Below, in pieces: positions 7,375-53,400 of a stretch of 64,000 nucleotides of DNA. Source of the stretch: Zingiber officinale. Its lineage: Eukaryota; Streptophyta; Magnoliopsida; Zingiberales; Zingiberaceae. Each line of letters begins with the position of its first letter. Positions within the stretch are counted from its first letter, which is position 1. The stretch is taken from assembly GCF_018446385.1 (NCBI RefSeq), contig NC_055989.1:133451004-133515003 (forward strand), read 5' to 3'. The translations under genes were made by a program, and so were the position numbers. A model generated the notes under the pieces. It had not been told where the DNA came from, made no database searches, and saw nothing but the letters and a program-made list of their open reading frames with translations.

Positions 7375-10316
7375 ATGAAATCCATGAACGACAACTGGCT
7401 GGGCTTCTCCCTTTCCTCTCCCATGAACACGGATGCATCTTCCAATCCACACCATTGCCAAGATCATATAAATCATCATCACCACCAAACTCTACCCTCA
7501 TTTGCCACTACGACTGCAGTGCCATGCAGCATCTTCCATTTTCCACAGGCCACCAACTCCGGTATTTGCTACGGCATGGAAGGCGCTGATAATGAAGCAA
7601 TACTTTACCCTCAGTTATCTGTCATGCCGTTGAAGTCCGATGGATCACTCTGCATCATGGAAGCTGTCAGCAGATCGCAGCAGCAAGGTTAGCTGCTTGG
7701 CTCTTCCATTTCAAACATGTTCCTCATTGCAATTGTTCTGATGCACATTTCGATACTGCAGTTGTAGGAATGGTGCAATCTCCGTCGCCTATATTAGAAG
7801 ACTTCCTTGGCGGTGCACCACACATGGGAATCCATCACCAGTACGTGAACGACGATAGCACGGCAGCAATGGCTTTAAGCTTGGACTACAGCAAAGAATC
7901 TGATAGCCAAGCCAACAGAAACCATTCCCTGGGCCTTCTCCAAAGGCAACATCAATTGTATTTCCAACCATTGCATGAAGGGTTATGCCATGAGATGTAT
8001 GATGTCGCAATGGAGGAAGGATCAACCAATGGCGAAGGAATTTCCAGCCTAAAGTCTTGGGTGAATAGGCACTACAATGGCGGCAACAATGGGTATTGCG
8101 AGGAAACTGCTCTTGGATCTGACCCTGTCGGAGCAATTGGGTATGGGAATCTGCAGCCCTTGAGCTTGTCCATGAGTCCTGGGTCCCAGTCCAGCTGTGT
8201 CACAGCTCCTCTGCAGAGCTCTGCTGCGACTGAATGCATGGCTTTGAATGCGCCAAAAAAGAGAGGTGCTGGCAAAGTGGCCTACAAGCAGCCTGTTCAT
8301 AGAAAATCTATTGACACATTCGGCCAGAGGACCTCTCAGTATAGAGGTGTTACGAGGTCAGTTTTCATTATTTTTTTTTTTCCAATTACTATATATTGTT
8401 ATACATTTATGTGAGCATCTTTATTGCACTAGTTTGTTTATTTCTGCATGTATTTCTCATGCATTAATCCAATATATGAGTAGAACAAGATCAGTTTGCA
8501 CGTTACAGTATGAGTTTGAACATTTTCAATGCCTGTGGTCAGTGTGGTTCTTTCAAAATATTAAAAATACATTCACTAAGATTATTTGTTGTTAATTTAA
8601 TTATGATGCATTCAGATCTTATATATTGCTTCCTTTTTCTGGATTACTATATATTTTCAGCTAGCTATTATGTGAATCAATCAAAATATTTATGTATTGG
8701 TGTTCTTATCGGAATCCTTGATGATTCCACCAGTTTATCTCATGTGATACATGCTTCAGGCATCGGTGGACCGGTAGATATGAAGCACATCTTTGGGATA
8801 ACAGTTGTAAGCAGGAAGGTCAAACGAGGAAAGGGCGGCAAGGTGAGTTGAAAAATGAGCTGAAGTGTTTGCTGGGAATACTCTTTCATTGTCATATTAA
8901 CGCACTTAATTACTTGTTCAGTTTCATATTCAACATTTGAGTAAACCCTTCTAACTACAAATTGTAATCTTGTTAATTTGTTATGTTATTCCTTTTGCCG
9001 GGTCTCGTAAATGAATACGCTTTTTCTGCAGTTTATCTCGGTACGCTTGCTTTGCACTCAAAAACTCATCTTCATTTCTTCTGTTTCAATATTCGTTTAT
9101 CTTTGTCATTTCGGCCTCTCAGGGGGTTATGATATAGAGGAAAAAGCTGCTAGGGCATATGATCTTGCGGCATTGAAGTATTGGGGACTATCAACACATA
9201 TTAACTTTCCAGTATTCACTGATCGGTTTAAATTTTCTTTAGCTTTGCAACATTAATTAATCTGCTACTAGATTTTTCTCTTGGCTGGATATCGTGCAGT
9301 TGGAGAATTATCAAGAAGAGCTTGAAGAAATGAAGAATATGACCAGGCAAGAGTATGTTGCACACTTAAGAAGGTAAATCTCATTTTTATCCATTCACTA
9401 CTCGTTTTTAGCTGGTATTTCCAGAACATTACTTTGCCTCAACTTATTTACAGGAGAAGCAGTGGGTTTTCTCGAGGGGCTTCAATGTACCGCGGAGTCA
9501 CCAGGTTGCTTCAACTCAGAGTGATCTACTGCCATAAACCCTTACTACCTTCACATTCTGTTTGCTGATTAATTTGATATTTCTTCACAGGCATCACCAG
9601 CATGGACGGTGGCAAGCTCGAATTGGTAGGGTCGCTGGAAACAAAGATCTCTACCTTGGGACCTTCAGTATGTTTCTTTTCCATTATTTCCTGTCGAATT
9701 TTCTTGTTTTACATTGAAAGTCAATTATGCCTACGATATGCTAATACCACGTCATTTGATCACTCGGATGTTCTTTGATATAATGAAGCCTAACTAGGAA
9801 AGACAACGAGCGTATGCTTAATTTTCAAAGGGAAATGGACTTTCAGGCACGCAGGAAGAAGCAGCCGAAGCGTACGACATAGCTGCGATTAAATTTCGAG
9901 GCGTAAATGCAGTGCCCAACTTCGACATAACAAGGTACGATGTGGAAAAGATACTGGAGAGCACTACCTTGTTATCGGCGGAGCATGCCAGGAGAAATAA
10001 AGCGATCGATGCAGAAAGAGAAGAACCTACTAGTTCTGAAGGCAACAACTCGAGAGACGTCTTCGTAGTGAACGACACCAGCACCACCGCTTCAGGTTGG
10101 AAGATGGACTTCCATTCAGTTCACCCGGCACAGGACTCCAAACCGGTCGTTGAAAATTTAAGCTCACCCCGAGCTGTGGATGATTTGGAGAATCTGGGAA
10201 GTAGCAACCACCAACACGCAGAGACAGCAGCAATGGCGACGACTGAAGGGGCTCCTGACAGAACTGGCTTCTCGTTGACGTACATCACTAAGGTTGAATG
10301 GTTCTACCACTGCTAG
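7375..10316 (+). CDS. ANT: AINTEGUMENTA (ANT), AP2-family transcription factor
   Basis: Nuclear DNA-binding activator of organ growth in plants. By GT-AG splicing I read nine exons: 7375-7687, 7762-8356, 8760-8842, 9032-9040, 9123-9211, 9300-9373, 9454-9504, 9591-9667 and 9847-10316 (586 residues). The first AP2 repeat (about 298-363) has the ANT-type 10-residue insertion; the second is about 400-456. Exon 4 is a 9-nt micro-exon giving the VYLG junction, as in other AP2 genes. ANT rather than BABY BOOM/PLETHORA is shown by [62 protein letters not shown] and the post-domain motif [13 protein letters not shown] start at the ATG giving [11 protein letters not shown]; a later ATG at 7384 is also possible. 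The C-terminal 130 residues are divergent and lack the usual ANT ending. It has no AP2-type miR172 site that I can see, as expected for this subgroup. Confidence 0.93.
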
Positions 10317-14864: not shown

Positions 14865-15289
14865 TGCCGATGATGCAGATCGCCCTCCCACTTATTAGGG
14901 TTTCCTCTTCTTCGTCTCCCTCCAAGTCGACGACTTCATCAACTCCTCCGCTCCGCCCATATCCAGAACGATGGTGCGTTTTTAAAGCGTGTACGATACT
15001 TTAAGATTCGTGTTTTTTGTATTCTTGATTTGGGCCGATTCTAATCTCTTCACTTGTTGGACTGAAGATGATGGTGCGGCCCATCAAATTTGTAGTTCGT
15101 GTATCCTGACGAAGAAAATTCGATTTTTTACATAAAGGAGCGGCTTTCTTATTTAAACAACTTAATTTTACAACTATAAAATAGAGCATTAAAAATAGAA
15201 TTATTCTCTTTCTACTCTTCTCCCTAACATCTTAAATCCCACCTTATTTTTCAATGCACAGATTTGATATAAGAAAATAATAGATCTAT
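14865..15289. promoter_or_regulatory. Upstream region of the plastid membrane-protein gene
   Basis: GC-rich next to the start codon (14865-14980), consistent with a 5' leader on the minus strand, then AT-rich. No other feature seen. Confidence 0.35.
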
Positions 15290-15740
15290 GTTGGACCTGA
15301 TATGATTCAATATTAGATTCAAAATGCATGATATAAGAAAATATTATACTCAGCGTGTGCTTGATAATATTGGATTATATCAGACCCATAGTACGTAGGC
15401 TCATCGTCAAGGCCGGCCCTCGAGGAGGGCGGCACTGGGCGATGGCCCTGGGTGCATTATTTGAGAGGACCCAAATATTTTTTTTTTAGTATTATGTATT
15501 ATATGCATGTAATTGAGGCCTTAAATAGTTGGGTCCAAATTCATATTTCAGATATTGTCTTTTACTTTTATTTTTTTAGGCATGTAATTGGGAACCTTGA
15601 GTAGTGGGGCTCAAATTTATCTTGGACCTTTTTTTTTTCACCCGGGACCTCCTCTGTATAAAGACCAGAGATGTGTATCATGGGCATGATATAAAATCAT
15701 ATCAGGTCCAATAGTGAACCTGATACAAGTTCTTTTTAAT
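15290..15740. repeat. Unclassified repeat with CCTGATATGATT-type inverted motifs
   Basis: The edges carry inverted variants of a GACCTGATATGATTCA motif (about 15295-15315, 15370-15390, 15690-15710), related to the motif that dominates 46020-47650. The centre holds GGCCGGCCCTCGAGGAGGGC and two diverged direct repeats (GCATGTAATTGAGGCC near 15505 and GCATGTAATTGGGAACC near 15581). A decayed DNA transposon with another insert is likely; the GGCCGGCCC block recalls hAT-type ends, but I found no paired end. Confidence 0.4.
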
Positions 15741-16118
15741 CATGAATGAAGAGAGGGGATAGAAAAAGAATAACACTATTTTTTTTTATTTTAGTAATTT
15801 TAAAGGTGTTTTAAAAAAAGCGTGCTCCTTTTAGTAAAATGTGGAAGAAAATTCCAAGAACATCTTCGATCAAATAAATCCAAAATTTCCATTTCTTTAA
15901 TTTATGAATATATATTTTTAAAAAAATCGTAAGCAAAGGATCGATGATGCTTCCTTTGCAACAAGTACTGAAATAGATTTAGAAGAAATAGAGATTTATT
16001 TAATTTTTTTTATTTTATTCGTCGAACTTCATTTCCAATCATAATATATCAAGAGCACTAATATGGAGAGGGGATCACAACGTCACAGCTATATGTGATT
16101 TGGGTTTCGATATATTGA
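15741..16118. other. Intergenic, BCAT 3' flank
   Basis: AT-rich sequence with no gene. It should contain the 3' UTR and polyadenylation region of the minus-strand aminotransferase gene. Confidence 0.4.
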
Positions 16119-20794: not shown

Positions 20795-21330
20795 GTTAAA
20801 AGTTCAGCGGCGACTATAAACTTTAGTCTACGTCAACAGTCGAACGACGATTATAAACTCTTGTCTTCATCAACAGTCGAGCGATGACTATAAACCCTAG
20901 CCTACGTCAACAGTCAAGCAGTGACTAGAAACCCTTATCTTCGTCAACAGTTGAACGATGACTATAAACCGTAGTCTACGTCAACAGTCGAGCGACGACT
21001 ATAAATCCTTGTCTTCGTCAATAGTCGAGTGGCGATTATAAACCTTAGTATACGTCAACAGTCGAGTGACGACTATAAACTTTTGTCTTCATCAACAGTC
21101 GAGCGGCGACTATAAACCTTAGTTTATGCCAATAGTCAAGCAGAGACTATAAACCCTTGTCTACGACTTCAAGAGACGATGGGTGACTATAAACCCTCGT
21201 CTACGCTTTCAACAGTCGAGCGGCAGCTATAAACCCAAATCTACACTTCAACAGCCGAGTGGTAGCTATAAACTCGAGTCTACGACGAATAATAGCCGAG
21301 TGGCGGCTCTAAAACTGAGTCGACGATGAA
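20795..21330 (+). repeat. 37-bp tandem repeat with a 74-bp higher-order period
   Basis: At least nine well-kept units of 37 bp, each beginning CAACAGTCGAGCGACGACTA-like, followed by several decayed units. Units ending CTTGTCTTCGT alternate with units ending CTAGTCTACGT, so the true period is a 74-bp dimer. The array lies inside the gypsy element between gag and the antisense remnants. Confidence 0.85.
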
Positions 21331-35128: not shown

Positions 35129-36242
35129 TGTTGGATATTGGGGCCTAAATGGACCAATACGATTTTGAGGAGGAAAAATCGGAAGCCATCAATTGTTGAA
35201 AGTCGTAATTGACTTCAAAATTGAAATCTACGTTTCGCGTAGATAGATTTAGACTATTAATTTGCTCAAAACCGATTAAGGGTGAATGAGAAATTAATGT
35301 TCAAAGTCGGCCCAAAATAACGTTGGTTATTCATTAAGGAAATGCAAGGGAGAATAGTCCCACATCGGAAATTTCCGATGTGCATTCCTTACTTATTAAT
35401 GATGTTGAGTTATTGGAGTTAACTCAGAAAAGTACCAGGTACTCTCTGCTCAGGGGCGAGCAGGTGCTCGCACCTGTGAGCCCGCCATCCGCCACGTGCG
35501 CAATGGGCGCTTTGTAGGCGCACTTAAATTTATGCTCCAGGTGACATTGCAGTGCCTACATGGCACTCGGGTGACGTGTCAGGCTAGTACCTGACATGGC
35601 AGTGCCTATGTGGCATCCTCGTGGGCAAAGGGAGATGACTGGACAGTTGGTTGGGCGAACGGATGGCAGCCGTTGATCAACGTTGATCAAAGAAGTATGG
35701 TGGATCGCTTGTGATGCGATCTAGAGCGTTGGATCACAATGAGTCACGATCTGACGGCTTGGGATGAGACATGATCTGAAGCATCGGATCAATGGATCCA
35801 GATCCGATGGCTGATAGATCTGAGGGTCACAACTCTTAGATCTGATGGATGGGATTAAAGGGGCTATGTGAAGGGTTATAACTCTTCAGTCCGGACGGCT
35901 CAGATTAATCCACCCAAAGGTCACACCCCTCCCTAAAGCCTCTTCCTTTTGTATAAATAGAACCCTCCAGATTGGAATCAAATCACTCAACTTAATCTTC
36001 TCTTCCTCAAGTATTCACTCACTCATCTTGTGCATTCAAGAGTCTAAGAAGCCTACGAGAAGGTTCGCTGGTCTCGGAAGTCGGAGTGCTACGATTCCGA
36101 GACGATTGTCGTCGTTGTATCTTGGGAACGAATTGCAACAATCCGTTAAGCACCGTAGCGGAGCAATATCGTTTACGGAGATAGTGTCGAACACTAGCCT
36201 CGACGATCAGTTTGCATACTCCGGAATTTACCGGAAACAACA
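35129..36242 (+). repeat. 5' LTR of the copia element
   Basis: Begins TGTTGGATATTGGGG and ends GAAACAACA. It contains a TATA box (TATAAATAG at about 35955) and is about 140 bp longer than the 3' LTR. Confidence 0.9.
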
Positions 36243-36269
36243 GTCGTAAACGATATTCCGTACAAACTG

Positions 36270-39200
36270 ATATGGCTACCAACGACGTTCCAACCGCCAT
36301 TCCGACCGCTGTTCCGACGGCCGTTCCGACCGCCGTTCCATTCCACACGGAGAAAAGCCGGAGAAATTCACCGGAGCCGACTTCAAAAGATGGCAGCAGA
36401 AGATGCTGTTCTACTTAACAACGCTAAACCTTGTACGGTTTTTGCGTGAAGACCCGCCAGTCGCTACGGACGGTAGCAAGGCTGCTTGCGATACGTGGAC
36501 GCACGGAGATTTTCTGTGTCGCAACTACATTCTCAACGCCTTGGACAACACGTTGTATAACGTGTATTGTTCATTGGAGACAGCGAAATCTTTGTGGGAA
36601 TCGCTTGAGAAGAAATACAAGACCGAAAATGTCGGACTGAAGAAATTCATCGTCGGCCGGTTTCTGGATTTCAAGATGGTGGACTCAAAGAGCGTCTCAT
36701 CTCAAGTCCAAGATATGCAATTAATACTGCATGATCTGGACGCCGAAGGAATGAAGCTGAACGAGTCATTCGCAGTTGCTGCGGTAATTGAGAAGCTCCC
36801 TCCGTCATGGAAGGATTTCAAGAATTACCTAAAGCACAAGCAAAAGGAGATAGGGCTGCAAGACCTGATCCTGAGGCTACGAATAGAGGAGGATAATCGA
36901 AAGTTATCCGACTGCAGAGGAACCAAGCGGACTATAGACGATATGTCCAACCTGGTCGAGCCGAACGCTAAAAAGCCGAAACAGTTCAAGAAGAAGGCAC
37001 AAGCGAAGAAGTTCAAGGGATCCTGCTACAACTGTGGAAAGGCAGGACACCTGTCCAAGGACTGCAGACGCCCGAAGAAGCCAACCAAGGGGCCAAAGGA
37101 TGCTGCGAACCACGTCGCAACCTCTCTTGAGGACTTGGATCTCACTGCGGTTGTATTTGAAGCCAACTTGGTGGATACCAACCCGAAACAGTGGTTCATT
37201 GATACTGGAGCAACTCGTCATATCTGTTCCGATAAGGCGATGTTCTCCAAGTATACTCCGATAAATGGCGGGAAGCTCTATATGGGTAATTCCACGACGT
37301 CGCCAATTGTCGGACTCGGAAAAGTTGTTCTGAAGATGACGTCCGGAAAGGAGCTAACACTCATTGATGTACTCCATGTTCCCGACATCAGTAAGAACCT
37401 AGTTTCTGGAGCGGCACTAGTTAAGGCCGGATTTAGGCTAGTGTTCCAGTCAGACAACTTTGTACTTACGAAGAATAATATCTTCGTAGGAAAGGGGTAC
37501 CTAGAAAAGGGTCTATTCAAAATGGTTGTAATGCCTGTACTCCGAAATATTGATGGTAATAAAATAAATGCTTCCAGCTATGTTGTTGAGTGTTTTAATT
37601 TGTGGCATGATCGACTCGGACATGTGCATAATAATACTCTTAAACGTCTCGTCAAATTAAATTTATTACCAAACGTCAATGTTGACGGAACACACAAATG
37701 TGAAGTGTGCGTGGAAGCAAAAATGACGAAACTACCTTTTCATTCGGTGGAAAGGTCAACGACTCCTCTAGAGTTAATACATAGTGATCTATGCGACTTG
37801 AAATTTGTGCAAACTAGAGGAGGTAAAAAGTATTTTATTACTTTTATCGATGACTGCACAAAGTTCTGTTATGTCTTTCTTTTAAGAAGTAAAGACGAAG
37901 CCCTAGAGGCATTTAGAACTTATAAAACAGAAGTTGAAAATCAACTTGACAAACGAATTAAAATAATTCGTAGCGATAGAGGTGGAGAATATGATGCACC
38001 GTTTAATGAATTTTGTTCAGAATCTGGCATTATTCATCAAACAACGGCACCTTACTCACCTCAATCGAACGGTGTTGCCGAACGTAAAAATCGGACACTA
38101 AAAGAGATGATGAATGCCTTGTTGATAAATTCAGGCTTACCTCAAAACTTGTGGGGGGAAGCAATATTATCGGCAAATCACATTCTCAACAAAATCCCTC
38201 ATAAGAAAAGTGATAAAACTCCTTATGAACTATGGAAAGGCCGCGAGCCATCGTACAAATACCTGAAAGTGTGGGGGTGCTTGGCAAAGGTCGAAGTACC
38301 TAAACCAAAGCAAGTAAAGATCGGACCTAAAACGTTCGATGCGGTATTTGTCGGATATGCCCATAATAGTAGTGCATATCGTTTCCTAGTTCACAAATCA
38401 GACATTCCTGATATTCATGTGGGAACAACCATAGAATCTCGGAATGCAATATTTTTTGAAAACGTATTCCCAAATAAGAAGGGAAATATTGAAAATGATA
38501 ACAACGGAAGTTCAAACGAGAATGTCGTTACCGAACTTAGCTGTTATAAAAGAACTATTGACGATCAAAACAAAGAGCCACGTTGTAGCAAACGGGCTAG
38601 AGTTGAGAAATCGTTCGGGCCAGATTTCATGACTTTCATGTCAGAAATGGAACCAAGAACATTAAGTGAGGCTCTCTCTAGTCCCGATGCTCCAATGTGG
38701 AAAGAAGCTGTCAATAGTGAGATTGAGTCTATCATGAATAATCATACTTGGGAATTAGTAGACCTTCCTTCTGGTAATAAACCATTAGGTTGTAAGTGGA
38801 TACTAAAACGCAAGTATAAAGCTGATGGATCAATTGACAAGTATAAGGCCAGACTTGTAGCCAAAGGGTACAAGCAAGAGGAAGGCCTTAATTACTTCGA
38901 CACCTACTCACCGGTGACAAGGATTACGTCCATACGAGTGCTAATAGCCATTGCAGCACTGTATGACCTTGAAATACATCAAATGGATGTTAAGACTGCG
39001 TTCTTAAATGGTGAGTTGGAAGAAGAAATTTATATGGAGCAACCCGAAGGGTTCATAGCTCCAAGAAATGAGAAAAAGGTGTGTCGACTTGTTAAGTCGT
39101 TATACGGACTTAAGCAAGCGCCTAAACAATGGCACGAAAAATTTGACAAAGTAATGCTGTCAAACGAATTCAGAATAAATGAATGTGACAAATACATTTA

Positions 39201-41990: not shown

Positions 41991-42629
41991 ACAAGGGTTC
42001 TAACAATGACCTAATTCCGCAAGGAAGAAAAGATCGAAACCAGAACTGAATTAAAACCGCGCGTCGATGCGGCAACTGGAGAGATGATCTACCATAGGAT
42101 AACACTAATGTTACTGAGAAAAACAAAAATCTAAAACGCGTCCTTGGACACTCTTTCTGCTACATATATAAATATAAAGATCCAACGAAGCAATCAAATC
42201 CTCGATGCTACAACCAGTGAAATGATCGAGCACATGATCAAGATTAACGCTGCAAACTAAGAAAAGATGAAACGGATCGTTCAACTAGAAAACTTTCTAC
42301 TGCATACAGATATTGATAATCCTGCAAGTGAAGAAGGGATCCAGGTATCATTGTGCAAGACGATGTAAGAAGACAAGATCAAAGTTCAGAGGTATCGATT
42401 TCCTTCTCAATCGAGAAGCAGCAAAGAAGAAGCCCGAAACCGTGCCTCTCCAGCCGGCTCGAGATTTCTTCCGCCGGTTCATGATCATTAAACTAAGGAA
42501 GTCTTCCCCAATCGGCACGTGTCGGAATTGACTATGAGGTGCTGGATAGCACATGCCAGCTGTAGGTACACCGGAAGCGAGACTCATCCCCTACTTGTGG
42601 CCGCGTGGCCGCTTGGTCGATGGAAGGAA
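41991..42629. promoter_or_regulatory. Upstream region of PSRP6
   Basis: Unique-looking sequence. A G-box CACGTG lies at 42516-42521, about 110 bp before the start codon, a usual place for a light-response element in genes for plastid proteins. No TATA box is clear. Open frames here are short and unrecognised. Confidence 0.45.
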
Positions 42630-42953
42630 ATGGCATCCATGGCGGTGATGCTGGCGAACGCGGTCCGAGTTCCTTGCGCGAACCCCAAGCCATCATCTTT
42701 TTCTCCGTCGTACGGAGGGGGCGACAGGGGATCGCCGTCGGTGGTGGAGTGCTCCTCGCGGCCGCAGAAAAAAGCGACGTCGCACCACATGAAAACGAGG
42801 CCGAAGAAGACGCAGCCCTGGGACATCAAGCGCAAGGGGCCCACCGCATACCCTCCTCTCCCTGTTCTACCCCCCGACTGGACCCTCGTCTCGTCGGTGG
42901 AGCCGCCTCCGCCGCCGGTTGAAGGTGATGCTCCGGCCACCGCTTCCGGATGA
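42630..42953 (+). CDS. PSRP6: Plastid-specific 50S ribosomal protein 6, chloroplastic (PSRP6)
   Basis: Nuclear gene for a small plant-specific protein of the chloroplast large ribosomal subunit (bL38c). One exon, 107 residues, close to the usual 106. After a transit-peptide-like start (MASMAVMLANAVRVPCANPK, small and Ser/Ala-rich residues following) comes the diagnostic block ECSSRPQKKATSHH and KKTQPWDIKRKG, then PPLPVLPPDW. The C-terminus is rich in Pro, Glu and Ala and varies in the family. An in-frame ATG at 42519 would add 37 residues without transit-peptide character, so 42630 is preferred. Codon third positions are GC-rich. A G-box lies about 110 bp upstream. Confidence 0.92.
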   Translation: MASMAVMLANAVRVPCANPKPSSFSPSYGGGDRGSPSVVECSSRPQKKATSHHMKTRPKKTQPWDIKRKGPTAYPPLPVLPPDWTLVSSVEPPPPPVEGDAPATASG

Positions 42954-43129
42954 GTCGCATCGGCCGCCCGGTAACGCCCTCGTCTGTCGGTTTGGTCACT
43001 ATATGCGTCGTGTTTCCTTCGTGGTCGTGGTTGCCTCTCAGGTGTTCGATGTTTTGTCTAGCTCGAATTGTTTACTGTCCTGCAAATTTAGGTCATGTTA
43101 TTTGATAATATGAATGACACTGGAATTAT

Positions 43130-43680
43130 TCCACTTGCACAATGCTACTTTCTGAAATTGATCGAAGCTTCAAAATTATACACTTTTCTGGTTGTGTTCA
43201 TCGAGACTTTAGGTTGTGTTTGACTACGAATCTGATTTAGAGCTTGCTTGCACAATGCTACTTGCTGCGATTGATTGAAGCCTCAAAATTATAACTTGTT
43301 TGACTTTGTTTACCAAGAATTTCACTTCAAGTCTTATTTTAGAGCTGCTTTGCTTGATTACCTCCACTTGCACGATGGAGGTAAATAAGCAGCTCTTCCT
43401 TTTTCAATGCCACTTTAAGTTGATTGGAAACTTCAATATTATACACTTGTCTTGGTTGTGTACATCAAGAACTTAAGCTGCATTTGACTTCAAATTGGCT
43501 TTAAATTTTGCATATGACCTTCACTTGCACAATGGAGGTAATTATGCAGTTCTTCTTTGCAAACTGCCACTAGCTGAGATTGATTGAAGCTTCAAAACGA
43601 TAACTTGTCTGGCTGTGTTCATCAAGAATTCTACTTGTGTGACTTTGAATCTGCTTTACAGCTTTCTCTATGTCTGGTTC
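43130..43680. repeat. Four diverged tandem repeats of about 130 bp
   Basis: Each unit has a GATTGAAGCTTCAAAATTATA-like part, then ACTTGTCTGGTTGTGTTCAT, CAAGAA and TTTGACT...CTTTA, and TTGCACAATG. Units start near 43158, 43266, 43430 and 43580. Identity between units is about 70-80 percent by eye. No coding frame is maintained. It lies 0.2 kb downstream of PSRP6 and could include that gene's 3' flank. Confidence 0.65.
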
Positions 43681-44600: not shown

Positions 44601-45884
44601 TTTTCTGAGTTGATTGATAAGATTACCATTCTAGCTCACAAAAGCTATAGGCAATAATATGCTTTCGTGTAAAGTACCTTGACAAGTTTGTGTTTGTGTA
44701 ACTAATCCATTCAATGTAATTGGATAATAATAAAATTAATACTACAAGACATTTAAGAATATCTTAATCTTATGTTATATTACCTTAGAAATAACATTTA
44801 CTATAGGAAAATCTTTCATGTCAACTGCGCACAACAATACCAAATAGGAATTTATCATTCATATGAAAAAATACAAATAAATCAAGAATTCTAAGCTAAT
44901 CACGCTATCACTTGTTATTACTCCAATCTAAAATTAAAAAAAACCAAGTCTTCATACCACCAACTTTGATAGTTCTTTTCAGAGTTGATTGATAATGTAA
45001 GAAATATATAATAATTAAATAGGTCGCTCATAAGGATTGACCTGATTCAACCTAAGATAAATTCAAATATTAAATTTAAATGTTTGGAGAGAATGATTAT
45101 TTTTTTTCTTAACCTCCTTAATTCCACATAATCATACACATAAGAATATATGAAAAGAAAGTGGGGTGGAAAAAAGAAAAACAGTTCTCATTTTTTCTTA
45201 TGAAAGTGTTGACTTCATTTCAATTTGGCAAATCAAAACACTATAATTATTAAGTATTTAGATTCTGAGAATTTATTACTTTCTGTTCGTGATCAGTATT
45301 AGACCATTGAGGCATTACTATCATCGGAAGGAAGGTTAATAAATCAACTATAAACGATCCTAAATTGAATGATGTTTTTTTTATTTGATTTTCTAATTAA
45401 TTTTTTGTTTATCATAAGTATCATAGCCAAGTTTTAGTTGAATTTCTAGCGAGTGGTTTGTTTTTCATCTTGTCCAAACTTCAGATGGAATGGTCCGAAT
45501 GGATGCTTATGGTGTTTTTTTTCTCATTGCATCGTATAAATAAAGAGAGAGAAAGTGGGAGACATTATACGTGTCTGACATAAGAGATGCATGCAAGGAA
45601 GTTTGTTCGACAATTTACCAAAGTGCATTTCCAAAAAACGTATACACTACTTTGATATTTATCAAAAATTTATATTTTAAAATGCATTTCCTATTTTATC
45701 CTTCTGATAAATCTGACCTTTTCTCTTTTCACTTTATTTCTCACTCTTTCTTCTATTTGCTTTTTTCTATGCATGCAACCAATCTAATTTTTCCTCTATG
45801 CTCTTGTCTTTCCTCTCTTTTTTTCCATGTGTGCATACATAACAGGCCTACAATGTTTAGAGTTTAGTTGATTTTTTTGATAAC
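44601..45884. other. AT-rich intergenic DNA
   Basis: No gene supported; several A/T homopolymer runs. Confidence 0.4.
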
Positions 45885-47660
45885 ATTAGAATACATTTGG
45901 AGAAGTTGAAATAATCAGTAGATGACATATTTGAATTTTTTGCAATCCCATAAATCAACAGAGACTCCATTATTTATTTCAGCTTCTATGGAGGTGTAAA
46001 TTATAATAACGATGAATTAACAAAAATCCACATGCGTTGGCCTGATATGAATCATATCAGGCCCATATTGGGCCTGATATGGAATCATATTAGGCCTAAC
46101 ATGAGCTTGATATGATTCATATCAGACCCAACGTATGGGGATTGTTTTGTTGATTTTTTTATTATATTTTAATATCTTTTAGGAGTTGAAATAAATAATA
46201 GATAACATATTTGAACTCCTTGTAACATCAGAAATCCACAAGAACTGAAATGAGTGCAATCGGAGCTCTCCGGTCCATTAGTGAGTTTTGATCGAAACCC
46301 ACTGATCGTCCTAGAGACCTCAGATTGCAGTCATTTCAGGTCATGTGGATTTCTAAAATTGCAAGGAGTCCAAATATGCCCCCATTATTATTTTTGACAT
46401 TCTTGGTAGTGGACCAGAGGTTTTGAAAAAAAAAAAAATTTCTTTTTTTTTTTCCTGTTGTTAGGCTTGATATGGAGAGATATCAGGCCCAATAACAAAA
46501 AAAAAAAGAAAAAAAGAGAGATTTTAGTTTTTCAAACCATCTGGTCCACCACTAGAAATGTCGAAAATAACAATGGAGAACATATTTAAACTCCTTGCAA
46601 TTTTAGAAATTCACAGGGCCTGAAATGACTACAATCTGAGGTCTCTAGGTCGATCAGTGGGTTTCAGTTAAAACCCACTGATGGACCTAGAGAGCTCCGA
46701 TTGCACTCATTTAGTTCCTATGGATTTCTGATGTTACAAGGAGTTTAAATATACTCTCTATTGTTATTTTCGGCATTATTAGTGGTGGACCAGAGGTTTT
46801 GAAAAACCTAAAACGTATGAGGATTGTTTTGCTGATTCTTTCTTATTATATTTTAACATCTTTTAGAAGTTGAAATAAATAATAGATAGCGTATTTAAAC
46901 TCCTTGCAACATCAGAAATATGTAGAAACTGAAATGGGTGCAATCGGATTTCTCTGGTCCATCAGTGAGTTTTGGCCGAAATCTACTGATTGACTTAGAG
47001 ACTTCAGATTGCAGCCATTTGAGGTCCTATGGATTTCTAAAATTGCAAGGAGACCAAATATGCTTTCTATTATTATTTTTGACATTTCTAGTGGTACATC
47101 AGAGATTTTGAAAAACTTAAATCTTTCTCTTTCTTTTTATTTTCTGCATTAGGCCTGATATCTCCCCATATCAGGCCCACATTGGGCCTGATATGGGGAG
47201 ATATAAGGCCCAATAACAAGAAAAAAATGGAAAAAAAAGAAAAAAAAATTTAGGTTTTTCAAAACCTCTGGTCCACTACTGGAATACCGAAAATAACAAA
47301 GGAGAGCATATTTGGACTCCTCGTAATTTTAGAAATCCACAGGACCTGAAATGACTGCAATCGGAGCTCTCTAGGTCCATCAGTAGGTTTTGGTCAAAAC
47401 GAACCTAGAGAGCTCCGATTGCACTTATTTCAGTTCATGTGGATTTTTAAAATTGCAATGAGTCTAAATATACTTCCCATTGTTTTTTTTCGGCATTCTT
47501 AGTGGTGGACTAGAGATTTTGAACAATTTAAATCTCTCTATCTTTTTTTTCTTTTTCTTCTATTGTTAGGTCTGATATCTCCTCGTATCATGTCTACATT
47601 GGGCCTGATATGGAGAGATATCAGGTCCAACGTAGGTCTGATCTCCTATAATAGGTTTGA
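45885..47660. repeat. Hierarchical palindrome array
   Basis: Two tandem units of about 0.7 kb (about 46130-46810 and 46811-47530), preceded by a decayed partial unit. Each unit is a large inverted repeat centred on a small hairpin (GGCTTGATATGGAGAGATAT near 46464; GGGCCTGATATGGGGAGATA near 47184). Each arm is itself a hairpin of about 180 bp: one side reads GAAATGAGTGCAATCGGAGC, the other GACCTCAGATTGCAGTCATT, which is its near complement. Further hairpins such as GGCCTGATATGAATCATATC lie at both edges. No coding frame exists. Confidence 0.85.
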
Positions 47661-49355
47661 GAAAATAATTGAAAAAAAGGGGGAAAAAAGAAGAAGAGAA
47701 GATAAAAAAGAGGAGAGGAAAGTGTATAGTAGAAAAGAAAAAAAAAAAAAAAAAAAAAAAAAGAGAGAAATGATAAAAAAAAAATCAATTAAATTTATCA
47801 AAGGATAAAATAAGAAGATGATTATAAAAAAAATTATACATCTTTTATAAATTTAAAAATATAAGTACATCTTCATAAATTACCGAAGTTTGTTCAATGT
47901 CAAACACGTACAGTTTCCCCAAGCGGTGAACAACCATTTTAAAAATAGAGTCCACCTGTTATTTCTTAAAAGAATTTGGAAGAAATTAAAATATAATAAA
48001 TTTTTGGCTTGTCCTGCATGTTTCGAAAATTTAGCAAGGATGCACCAATTTTTTTTTTTTTTTAATTTCATATATTGCAAGCGGTACTATATTTTCACGT
48101 CTAATATGCATAAGTCTACAGTATTATTTTTTTTAATCTACTGTTTTAAATATTAAGAGATATTCCTAGAATCTAATATTTCACAGTTATAAAATGATGA
48201 TGCATAATCGGTCTAATAATATTTTTGAAAAAATTGGTGTTTAAAAGTTTTTTAAAATAATATAGTTGGACTGTGTATTTCGTAATTGAATTCTGAAATG
48301 AGTTTATGATTGTTTAATATAATTATGAATATCAATTTTTTAGTTAACGTGATCCATAAGAATTTCTTGCGTTTAATATCTAAAGAAAATTAGCCAATAA
48401 AATTGAGAATGAGATATTGTTGTGATACTTTAACATTATCATCTTGAATGTTAAATATTACAGTTAACTTTGTGCCCAATTTAATTTTTTTTCTCATAGT
48501 ATAAATAAGACTAGAATTAAACACACTCTTAGTATCTTCCGAGGAGCAACTAAAGTTCAAAGAGCCTCACACCCTACTTCAACATCTTAAAATTTGGGAA
48601 GAGAAACATTTATATCTTGTGTGTTTGGGTCATTATTTTGAATATGATTATATAATTCAAATTCTAAGAGATTCTCTGTTTGGACGTTAGAAGAACACAA
48701 TTGATGAAATACTTAACCAAAGGGAATCATTGATCTACCTTGATGCGATAAAATCATCATTAATTATGAGATGGAGGAAAGAGATTGAACTCGATATGAA
48801 AAAGTTATTATCTTTGAGGATAAATTCTTCTAGTACTTATCAGACAGGCTCTTAAAAAGAATGATCATAATGATAACTCACATGTGTAATATAAAAAGAA
48901 ATTAGATTTTCCGTAGGACGATGACAAGTGATTATGTATGTTTATTTTGAAGTTTCACATAAATATAATATGGAATATGTAATGTAATTTATGTTTTATT
49001 TGTGTTTGAATACAAGCATGAATTATAAACTTTGATGTTAGTTTATTTTAATACATATTTGTCTCCATATATTTATTTAGAATTTATTGAGATATTCTAA
49101 GTTATGTGGTAGTTTTAGGCAGGAAGAATTTGAGTGATTCTCATCTAAAATTAATTGATATTTTTTTATTGTAACTTTTGAAATTAAATTTATGATAATG
49201 CAACATTAGGATTGTAGATAATGATTGAGAACTTAGTGAACTTTTGAGTCTAAGTTTTATGTTAACTCATCAGAGATGTTAATTACAAATACAAACACTA
49301 ATGTATATATTTAATGAGCATTAACATGTGTTATCACCTCTAATATATATAAACC
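47661..49355. other. AT-rich intergenic DNA
   Basis: Includes a long A tract (about 47739-47761). No gene, RNA or element end supported. Confidence 0.4.
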
Positions 49356-50469
49356 ATGACATCAAAATCTATTATTGTTGATCTTAACAAAGGTGACAAA
49401 TTGAATGGTGACAACTTTGATACTTGGCATCAAAAGATTTGGTATGTGTTTGATGAGCAAGATGCCTTAAAGGGAATCAACCAAATCATGTATAATCCCG
49501 GTGTGGTTAACAATGCCCAATGGAGGAGAGATCAAGAAGCTTACCAGGCATGGAAAAAGAAAGATTTCACCGATTGTGCTATTTTGGTTAGCTCTGTGAT
49601 TGATGATCTCATCCATGAATATGAGCAGCATCCTACTGATCATGACATTTGGGTGTACCTAAGGGAGTAATATGAAGGCACTATAGTCACCCGTCTAAGA
49701 CAATTGACTATCAAGTTTGACACTTAACAAGAAACAAGTTGATCACAACATTTGTGAACTATGTCAAACATGATATGTGAATTGACATCAGTTGGTCATA
49801 TTCTCTTTGATGAGCAACAGGTTCAAGCTTTGATCCAATCTCTTTCTGACAAATGGGAGCATATGAAAGTCAATCTTACTCACAATGATAGCATTCAAAC
49901 TTTCTCTGATGCTACTCTCCATGTTGAACTTGAGGATGAGCGGTTTGGTGATGCTAAGTCCATAGCAAGCACTTTTGTGGCTGAGTCTAGTTCCAAGAAA
50001 TCTCCGGTCTTTAAATGCTTTAAGAACGAGAAGAAAAATAAGAAAGGGAAGAATGTTGTGGAAGAGTCCAAGAAGACAACTTCAAGACAAACTGAAAGAA
50101 TAAGCGTAAGATGTTTGGGAAAAAGAAATATAAGAGCAAAATAAAGTGCTACAATTGCCAAGCATTTGGTCATTTTGCTCGTGAGCGCCCTGAGCCTAAA
50201 AAGGTAGCACTGACTAACACTTTTGTGAGTACTATATGTGTCTCTAGTATTGTTTTACTAACTGAATCTTATCCTGTGTGGATTGTAGACTCAGGAGCAA
50301 TAAACCATATAACTAGAGATCATGAAGTGTTTGTACATTTTCATCGAGTTCCTTGCGACACAAGATGGATATATATAGAAAATAATGCTAAAGTTGAAGT
50401 CAAAGGCATCAGTACTTGCAAATTTGAGTTGCATGGTAGCCTAACTCTTATCTTACATGATGTCCTCTA
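49356..50469 (+). mobile_element. Ty1-copia gag-protease remnant, broken
   Basis: Translation shows a copia gag start (NKGDKLNGDNFDTWHQKI), a zinc knuckle (CYNCQAFGHFARE near 50148) and a protease segment (WIVDSGAINHITRDHEV near 50280). The coding region is broken at least twice and ends abruptly where a different LTR begins. No LTR of its own was identified upstream. It is a fossil interrupted by the next element. Confidence 0.8.
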
Positions 50470-53400
50470 TGTTGGTGCATTTAGCACCCATGATCAAATC
50501 TGAGTTTTGATGAATGATAAGTAGATTAAAGTTAGATGTATTGATCTAACCTTGTTATCGAGTGGGTAGAATTGACTAACTTGACGGATCAAGAGGACCA
50601 TACACCAGGCAAAAAGTCTAGATGTGAGATTCTGGCAGGAGGTTGGGATGTTCGATTCCCGATGGGTTGAAGTCTGGATGTGCGATCCTGCAGGAGGTCA
50701 GGATGTTTGGTTCCCAATTGGTGAAGTCTGAATGTACAATTCTGGTAGGAAGACGTATTGAGTCAGATTGATGTCAAGGAGATAACTTGACAGTTGGTAA
50801 ATGAAGGTAAGTCACTGGAGGAGAGTGACTCAGTGAGGACATGTCCTAATTAAGGGGACAGTAGGTGTTGGTCCAATGTAGGTCCATTTTAAAAATCTAA
50901 ATTGAGACCCTGACTAGATCCTGGTCTCGGGTGTTGTTGTAATTTCCTTAGGTCAAGGTTGACCAGTTTAACTAAGTTTGAGTTTACTCAAACTTGAGTC
51001 TTGATATTTGACTTTTGATGTTTGACAATATATGAAAATTGTATGGACAATTGTCAATTTGGGAAGATTGTTAGTATAATTTCTCTCTGATCAAGGTTTG
51101 ATTAGTTTGATATGAAGAAGAATCAAGTAGGTCAAAGTTGTCCAGATACTTGACTAGAAAGTTCTAACTGGAGGTTGAATAAGGGCAAGTCCAACGGGAA
51201 GGTTGGCATAAGATGAAAATTTAAGTGGGTCAATGTTGACCAGACATTTGGTGTGAAAATACCTAGTGAGTGAAACTAAGCAGTTGGAAAATTCTAGTAA
51301 GTGAAGTCAGGCAAATGGAAAATCCTAATGAATGAAGCCAGGTGTGTGAAAATCCATATGAGTCCAGGTTGACTGTGTTGGTGCAGTTTGTACTAATGGT
51401 CTAACTTAAATTTTGGTGAATGACAAGTGAGTTAAATTAGGTGTTATTGTGATCTAATTGCTTAACCAAGTGTGCAGGAGTTGATGGGTCTGGAGGACCT
51501 GATATCAGACTGAAATTCAGCTAGGTCCGTGGGACCCGATAGTTGGTGCCAAGTCTAGATAGCTCAACGGGCTGACAGGATATCTGACAGAAAATTCAAT
51601 TAGGTCCGTGGGATCTAACAGCCGGTAGAAATCCAATTGAGTCTGTGGACCTGACAATTGACATGAAAACCTGGTGGATCATGAGGCTAGTCAATCGACT
51701 GTAAGTGGGTAAGTACAGGTAAGTCACTAGAGGAGAGTGACTCGGTGATGATGCACCCTGATTGAGGGGCAGTAGGTATCACTCCAGTTTAGATCTATTT
51801 CGAATCCCTAAACTGAGACCTTGACTAGATCCTGATCTCGGGGAGACAAGGTATAATTACTACTCAGTAATCTTGTGCTAACACTTGTCTTGCAGGTTAT
51901 TTTTTAGTTTATTGGACTAACATGTTTTGCAGGATAAGAAGAGCACAAAATGCCTCGAGTGAATAGTACCCGAGGTGCCTTTCAGGGGATAGAAGGCACC
52001 TTCAAGCATCGAAAGGCTCCTTGGAACTGTTCATGGAAGGCGCCTTCAGTGCATAGAAGGCGCCTTCCGCATGATAAAATTCTGACCTCTTCGGCGATAA
52101 GGATGGATATTTTTTCGGGATCAAGTTTTGCACACTGGAGACACCTTCAACCATGTGGAAGGCGCCTTCAACAACCTTTATAAGAGCATCTCGACCAAGC
52201 TTCATCAATTATCTGATATACAAGCTTCTACGCGTCCGATTGAGGTTCAAACTACTCTGACTTCTTGTTACGACTTTGCTACAACCCTGATATGCTCATC
52301 TACCGCTGAGAATCCTCCCAAACATCAAGCTCAAGTCGACCATCTACTAAAGAATGTTTGGTAAATTTAATTTGTATACTTAATTATTCCAAAAGGACAA
52401 GTGCAGTGTGTTACAATTGTTTTAAATTTCCTTATACTCGATTCCCTCTTCCGGAGGTACCGGAAGAGGTATTATAGTGGATTACTCATTGATAGGTCCG
52501 TGAAACCTAGGTCTTGGAGTAGGAGTCGCCGAAGGCTCCGAACCAAGTAAAATCAACCGTGTCTAGTTCTATCTTCTTACTTGCTTTTGATTTTCATGTT
52601 TTTCTGCTGCATTTACTTTGATATCAAAATGAAAGTAAAGTTTTTCAAAACCACGTGATTCACTCCCCTCTCATGTGTGACTCGATCCAACGAATTTAAC
52701 ACCTAATGTTTGGAAGTCTAAGTGGGTCAAGGAGGACTATACCCTTGGCACAGGACAGTAAGTCCAAGTGGGTCAAGGTTGACCGGACACTTGACACGGG
52801 GAGAAAAGTCTAAGTGGGTCAAAAGATTGACCAAACACTTGGTGATGAAATCCAAGCAGCTCAAGGTTGATCAAATGCTAGAAATAGGGAGTCCCGACAG
52901 GTCATGGTTGATCAGATGTTGGAATTTGAAACCCTAGACTTGAGTTAGTAAAGTTAGGGTTGGTAATCAGCTAATTGATTAAACCAGAACCCAATCGATC
53001 AATTAATTGATTGGGAGAGTTCTTACGAGCAATGATAGCCCACTTGATCAACTGATCGATTGAGGCTATGATAATCAATCAACTAATCGATTGGTGGCCA
53101 TTCGCGCAAGAGCACAGTGTGCTACCCAATCGATCAGCCGATCGATTGGGACACTCCAATCGATCAGTTGATCGATTGGGGCAGGTTTCTTGTGATGAGC
53201 AAGGAAAGACGGAATGGATTGGTCAATTGATTCTGGGGTCTTCTTTGAAAGCATGAAGGTTGGTCGATCAATCCAGTTGCTCTCAATTAATCAGTAAATC
53301 GATTGGAAGATGATCGTTGCACATGTTATGACTTCTGGATAGCTAGGATTGCTCGGATCTTACGTGACAATCGATTAGGAGTAAGCCCAATCAATTTGGA

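Follow-up and report, generated by a model that had tools for sequence, protein, structure and literature searches.

The nested palindromes in the stretch of ginger (Zingiber officinale) DNA analysed here (64,000 nucleotides, hereafter the window) are part of a single 2,278-bp DNA transposon with inverted ends, which occupies positions 45608-47885. That this is a mobile unit is apparent from its ends, its target-site duplication and an empty homologous site elsewhere in the genome. Foldback-type innards inside a non-autonomous Mutator-like element are the best reading of the structure, and we consider it likely, with a probability of roughly 0.87, that the interior is a palindromic array which was complete before the family dispersed and which is mobilised in trans by the transposase of a Mutator-like element (MULE). 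The preliminary description of this DNA had limited the feature to 45885-47660; the nested structure that it reported there stands, although its extent does not.

Boundaries and insertion site of the element

The limits of the element follow from a comparison with the contig C3, where flank searches place the sequences to the left and right of the element directly against each other (C3:153970091 / 153970092). Aligned with C3, the joined flanks are 86.9% identical through the junction and contain one uninterrupted GAAGTTTGTTC; paralogous places on C1, C18 and C14 likewise align across this junction. Judged by its sequence, the C3 stretch is the homologous place and is collinear with the window, since window positions 42300-43200 have their single long match elsewhere at C3:153967291-153968101 (97%), directly before the empty site, which follows at a distance of 2-3 kb.

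In the window, the site is present twice, as two copies of AAGTTTGTT that agree at all 9 positions (45599-45607 and 47886-47894). A first estimate of an 11-bp target duplication was discarded in favour of 9 bp plus one terminal base on each side, and the element was set at 45608-47885, because other copies show both the 9-bp length and the terminal motif. The target-site duplications of MULEs are 9 bp long (8-11). The left terminal inverted repeat (45608-45828, plus strand) starts with CGACAATTTACCAAA and the right one (47668-47885, minus strand) reads CGGTAATTTATGAAG inwards. In self-blastn, the two are 65% identical over 245 columns and the inverted structure extends outward, with 45604-45828 matching 47906-47668 in inverted orientation; with the outermost 24-40 bases left out, identity is 68.5% over 181 columns, and 10 of the outermost 14 bases agree. 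Three open reading frames of at least 60 aa touch the element: two, of 98 and 81 aa, are situated at its edges, and the third, of 66 aa, has 6 bases in common with it.

Other repeats are found in the same window. Downstream of the element, 49356-50503 holds Ty1-copia type fragments in separate frames (Pol_BBD and a zinc knuckle above the cut-off, gag_2 under it). The stretch 36000-36900 is a high-copy repeat, and a young one given that 39 of the 40 candidates scored (of 2,426) elsewhere are 98-99% identical to it. At 20806-21286, a 37-bp unit is repeated in tandem about 11 times, and the repeat has a higher-order period of 74 bp.

Organisation of the palindromic array

The inverted symmetry at several scales that had been read from the letters is borne out by self-comparison: the region 45885-47660 matches itself in inverted orientation with a best score of 822 bits, compared with at most 46.8 bits in 200 dinucleotide shuffles. 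Self-blastn returns one inverted match of 1,694 columns (70%) that spans 46030-47637 and another of 592 columns (82%) centred near 46480, and the outermost level of symmetry is the transposon's own terminal inverted repeats. Within these, self-comparison and arm identities confirm two tandem inverted-repeat units of about 0.7 kb, with hairpins as arms and small hairpins at the centres and edges. The arms had been put at about 180 bp; hairpins they are, but matches to an arm profile built from six window arms are 126-163 bp long, overlapping at the hairpin centres. This profile recovers eight arms in the window element and alternating-arm arrays in other copies.

The small hairpin, here called H, is the GGCCTGATAT mini-hairpin, searched for as GGCCTGATAT-N(3-9)-ATATCAGGCC, a motif that is its own reverse complement. 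H stands at mirror centres and edges; five of the six window matches with at most 3 mismatches fall inside the element, and 100 shuffles of the window gave none. Elsewhere in the window, 15265-15774 is a degenerate H-bearing stretch like the H regions of the element, without arms (H at 15683-15708, 2 mismatches), and is probably a diverged relative.

Read from left to right, the interior begins with a mirror (45966-46202, inverted self-match 77%) centred on three H mini-hairpins in tandem (46039-46131, period 33). Profile matches and arm classes define the hairpins that follow. P1 (46185-46430) has a left arm of the outer class, alpha, and a right arm of the inner class, beta; a single H (46461-46492) forms the mirror centre of unit 1, and P2 (46526-46808), with a beta arm on the left and an alpha arm on the right, is an inverted copy of P1. 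A joint of about 61 bp without H (46809-46868) separates this unit from the second one, in which P3 (46869-47116) is a direct repeat of P1 (46839-47063 against 46155-46379, 86%), two H mini-hairpins (47149-47213) form the mirror centre, and P4 (47253-47526) is a direct repeat of P2 with a right arm of mixed class. Two further H mini-hairpins mark the right edge (47566-47630; repeat family D9 and profile matches).

The order of a unit is thus alpha-beta'-H-beta-alpha'. The right arm of P1 is 87% identical to the left arm of P2, and the left arm of P1 is 87% identical to the right arm of P2, compared with 78% between the two arms of P1 itself; P2 is therefore P1 in inverted orientation, and the two are not merely both palindromic. 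The right arm of P4 in the window copy is intermediate, with 75-82% identity to every other arm.

As RNA, the segment 46180-46812 is predicted to fold with -374.7 kcal/mol, compared with a mean of -141.5 kcal/mol for 40 shuffles (z -34.9), and 258 of its 267 predicted pairs belong to one nested ladder; the prediction for 46130-47130 is -492.2 kcal/mol. The expectation that transcripts of the array would form very long dsRNA is thus in line with RNA folding, as a prediction.

A dispersed family and its gene-bearing relative

The genome searched comprises 3,090,333,446 bases in 211 contigs; the published account of a haplotype-resolved assembly of cultivated ginger gives 219 scaffolds (PMC8342452). 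A 35-base stretch of the alpha arm is found, at up to 3 mismatches, at 2,076 + 2,045 = 4,121 sites, and the H pattern occurs exactly at 7,440 sites, which are the same sites on both strands because H is palindromic; the reversed-pattern control gave 0 in both cases. With up to four alpha arms in an element of this kind, the arm count suggests on the order of a thousand elements or more.

In being non-coding and of high copy number, the element resembles a MITE. MITEs, however, are short, usually less than about 800 bp, and the element measures 2,278 bp.

The terminal motif YGRYAATTTAYCAAA and a 9-bp duplication are common to other copies. Of the 12 loci at which both sides show the terminal motif, nine have 9-bp duplications that agree at 8-9 positions (five at 9, four at 8), while L029 reaches 8/9 only with a one-base offset, L020 reaches 7/9 and L003 only 6/9. 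As the listed duplication pairs of other copies were filtered beforehand at 7/9, the weight is carried by a cross-copy pairing control, in which the flanks of ten pairs (the nine and that of a gene-bearing relative on C1, described below) agreed at no more than 6 of 9 positions in 88 tests. The duplication is identical in L025 and L033 and nearly identical in L020 and L021, which are probably allele pairs. Several family copies lie within about 35 and 26 kb on the short unplaced contigs C44 and C45, respectively. At L051 (C1:1738285), an H site sits within a 1.9-kb self-palindrome (64%) that has no match to the arm profile among those listed and is perhaps a more diverged lineage.

An arm tree, computed without a support test, and identity tables were made for 112 arms from 13 loci; the class averages come from five four-hairpin copies, and L011 and L012, which are probably alleles, always pair in the tree. 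In these five copies, arms of the same class at different positions are 81-88% identical between copies and 82-88% within a copy. For the outer arms (P1 left, P2 right, P3 left, P4 right) the values are 81-86% between and 82-87% within copies, and for the inner arms 85-88% in both comparisons, while arms at the same position in different copies are 84-89% identical. Across the classes, identity drops to 74-81% between copies and 73-82% within a copy. The difference between within-class and across-class identities identifies P2 as inverted P1, and P3-P4 as a repeat of P1-P2, and because identities within a copy are about as high as those between copies, the array must have been complete before dispersal and was not built at the window locus. 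The separation of the classes is imperfect: the right arms of P2 and P4 are closer to the other class than the left arms of P1 and P3 are, some arms lie outside their own class in the tree (e.g. P2 right of L010 and of L014, P4 right of L016 and P4 left of L009), and a single diagnostic motif divides the arms 30 to 82 rather than into halves.

A survey of 34 loci, of which 33 carry arms and one does not, yielded 113 joints between neighbouring hairpins; each probable allele, and each similar copy on an unplaced contig, was counted by itself. An A-B-A-B run is found at 16 of the 33 arm-bearing loci. H is present in 51 of the 53 mirror joints (A to B) and missing from those of the allelic pair L025 and L033; of the 38 tandem joints (B to A), 1 contains H and 36 are 59-68 bp wide, as is the joint in the window. 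The 22 irregular joints comprise 13 A-A (10 with H), 5 B-B (all with H) and 4 others. A fuzzy search for H gave 332 matches in the 34 loci, compared with 5 in one mononucleotide shuffle of each. Unusual conservation of the H stems finds no support, as stem positions score 0.69-1.00 in these 332 matches, some of which are false and lie in arms, and so do not exceed the arms themselves, at about 0.88.

A relative with coding sequence spans 15.9 kb at C1:12549214-12565104 (L053, L061, L054, L059, L067, L060, L062 and L065), and a cluster of H adjoins its coding sequence. MULE candidates in the genome number 3,530, of which 150 were scored. Its plus strand encodes a MULE transposase domain (PF10551, E 1e-15) and a SWIM domain (E 1.9e-9). 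The frame of the transposase ends at codon 321, and SWIM is encoded in a different frame; judging from these frames, the gene may therefore be either spliced or broken. On the minus strand there is a weak Ulp1-like piece (E 2.4e-4, 21.4 bits compared with a Pfam cut-off of 20.7) and a second one under the cut-off (E 0.013). Two arrays of arms and H are situated between the coding parts, one at 12552746-12555950 and the other at 12558335-12561097; over about 3 kb, each is the mirror image of the other at 78%, and units within one array are 90-96% alike among the matches listed. The arrays fit the same arm profile and H, with hairpins whose second arms are short, and further H lie inward of the two ends of the relative, at about 0.75 and 0.87 kb.

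The ends of the relative match those of the family. Of 14 end sequences taken from seven copies, 11 match its left end, the best with 80% over 75 bp (E 2e-14), and 11 match its right end, which is the inverted counterpart of the left (68.7% over 166 columns, E 5e-19). The 9-mers that flank the relative agree at 8 of 9 positions. For the window copy the correspondence is weak on the left, where its end matches the left end of the relative from base 28 on (67% over 112 columns, E 5e-7); in the same end comparison, its right end gave no match to the left end of the relative, and neither of its ends matched the right end. The window element and the relative have arm and H stretches in common at about 64-71%, while no match to the gene regions of the relative was found at E 0.01. 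As only family ends, H and arm stretches are common to both, a direct origin of the window element by deletion from this relative was rejected. A second copy on C1, which shares this left end and starts at 33039036, is 86.7% identical to the left part of the relative over 970 columns; the stretches searched did not contain its right end.

Origin of the array and comparison with known elements

Any tandem array of palindromes is symmetric at all scales, and units 1 and 2 are indeed direct repeats, so that the higher levels of symmetry might be an automatic by-product of repeating one palindromic unit; the narrow separation of the classes for P2 right and P4 right also agrees with this. For P1 and P2 of the window, however, it is refuted by the two inverted identities of 87% compared with 78% between P1's own arms, and the alternation of H-bearing and H-less joints also argues against it, which makes mere tandem repetition very unlikely. 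Several separate insertions, with MITEs inside MITEs, are more improbable still. Repeated hairpins of like size can mimic such nesting, and a few low-complexity 9-mers, together with one exact 9-mer at 46799 and 47108 that belongs to the repeated arm end, do recur near the edges of single hairpins. Against this, a single 9-bp duplication surrounds the whole element, a scan for 9-mers at the borders of P1-P4 and of each unit revealed no convincing duplication of their own (the many unit 1 matches are due to the beginning of unit 2 in the tandem), and the gap at tandem joints is constant to within 59-68 bp in 36 of 38 cases. Growth by repeated foldback insertion at the locus, one of two origins proposed in the preliminary description, fails on the same single duplication, the element having moved as one unit, and on the recurrence of the A-B-A-B run at 16 of the 33 arm-bearing loci. 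Long palindromes are also difficult to assemble, and an artefact of long-read assembly might be suspected; with 4,121 sites for the arm and 7,440 exact ones for H across the genome, controls at 0 and a clean empty homologous site on C3, it is scarcely credible.

A different question is whether the array is kept as a source of hairpin RNA, in the manner of Mu killer, such that long dsRNA would be diced to siRNA and the family silenced. The predicted folds (-374.7 kcal/mol, z -34.9, for 46180-46812 and -492.2 kcal/mol for 46130-47130) are in keeping with this proposal, as is the suggestion, in the published account, that the hairpin RNA of about 4 kb from Mu killer is a substrate for siRNA production (PMC3440606). 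On the other side, the window element matches none of the gene regions of the relative at E 0.01, and siRNAs would therefore hit the arrays and not that transposase gene; in addition, an Rfam search of the 64-kb window gave nothing at or above the gathering scores, although siRNA hairpins can be absent from Rfam. We regard retention of the array for this purpose as possible but rather doubtful.

The non-autonomous Mutator-like element with an array built before dispersal remains the preferred reading, and under it the following course of events would apply. The array would have started from one hairpin (alpha-beta'), which would then have been duplicated in inverted orientation around the H mini-palindrome, through foldback of a strand and its copying at the short inverted repeat, and the mirrored unit would subsequently have been duplicated in tandem. 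This building order, foldback copying at short palindromes followed by tandem duplication, is inferred. Inverted duplications at short inverted repeats are described in yeast, both for foldback priming (PMC10622511) and for origin-dependent inverted-repeat amplification (PMC4689423), and by analogy a duplication of this type may have occurred in the ginger array. The inversion during replication that had been put forward as the other possible origin agrees with the presence of H at mirror joints, the origin itself being a matter of inference. The completed array would then have spread as cargo: a MULE transposase, acting in trans on the inverted ends, would leave a 9-bp host duplication at each insertion. 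Transcription through the array would yield long, almost complete hairpins, which the host could plausibly turn into siRNA.

No account of the ginger family was found in the literature searched (open-licence papers), and the known systems, as far as the cited passages describe them, each share some of its features. Tm1 of root-knot nematodes, a Mutator/Foldback family (PMC3169594), has 9-bp duplications and inverted repeats of composite structure; its members either lack genes or carry a transposase, and some contain a hairpin motif. Its repeated units, however, are of 13-15 bp and lie in the terminal repeats, whereas the ginger hairpins have arms of well over 100 bp and are mirrored and repeated in tandem inside the element. 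Foldback elements are characterised by long composite inverted repeats that contain internal repeats; in the ginger element the inverted structure fills most of the length, but its internal units are palindromes rather than short direct repeats in the ends. Tetris of Drosophila virilis is modular and foldback-like, contains tandem repeats of about 220 bp in its interior and has its ends in common with a miniature element, but it is a fly element that is described without a Mutator-type transposase or units mirrored on a mini-hairpin (PMC4079207). The Kaonashi (KI) MULEs carry an Ulp1-like C48 gene in the orientation opposite to the transposase; in the C1 relative, the plus strand encodes the transposase domain and the minus strand carries the two weakly Ulp1-like pieces given above. 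KI-MULEs are described as non-TIR, in contrast to the terminal inverted repeats of the ginger family, and the descriptions cited mention no mirror array (PMC2528002, PMC13317346). Mu killer of maize is likewise a long inverted duplication in a Mutator system with a proposed hairpin RNA, but it is a locus with an inverted duplication of the transposase, whereas the ginger elements are a dispersed family without detectable gene sequence (PMC3440606), no inverted transposase copy having been found when the element was compared with the gene regions of the relative on C1 (E 0.01).

The VANDAL MULEs, which encode the anti-silencing VANC proteins, have dense, short noncoding motifs that are often in tandem and vary between relatives (PMC5735166, PMC10398659). 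The likeness to the ginger family is one of DNA motifs alone, and the VANC21 motifs are non-palindromic and in one orientation, unlike H (PMC5735166, PMC10398659). A VANC-type target is bound by a protein that the element itself encodes and that takes methylation away. In the way that VANC proteins bind motif arrays in Arabidopsis VANDALs, H might be a recognition site, such that a dimer of a protein encoded by the relative (the transposase or the reverse-strand Ulp1-like product) would bind GGCCTGATAT-ATATCAGGCC, the mirror arrays would multiply this site and the array would also be a source of long dsRNA. This is unlikely; if it were true, the same array would be both the silencing trigger of the host and the anti-silencing target of the transposon.

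Mutator/foldback hybrids, internal tandem repeats in foldback elements, MULEs that carry Ulp1 and binding motifs in VANDALs are all already known from these accounts. What is new, as far as the cited descriptions of Tm1, Tetris, Kaonashi and VANDAL extend, is a MULE interior in which hairpins are mirrored about a mini-hairpin and occur as tandem repeats. A transposon family thus carries and spreads a hierarchical palindrome, and its gene-bearing relative has an array of the same type between its coding parts. The rule that H occupies the mirror joints leads to a concrete hypothesis of how small palindromes in a plant genome are enlarged into big ones, and with thousands of arm sites in a haplotype-resolved genome, tests of siRNA formation, of methylation and of array growth are feasible.
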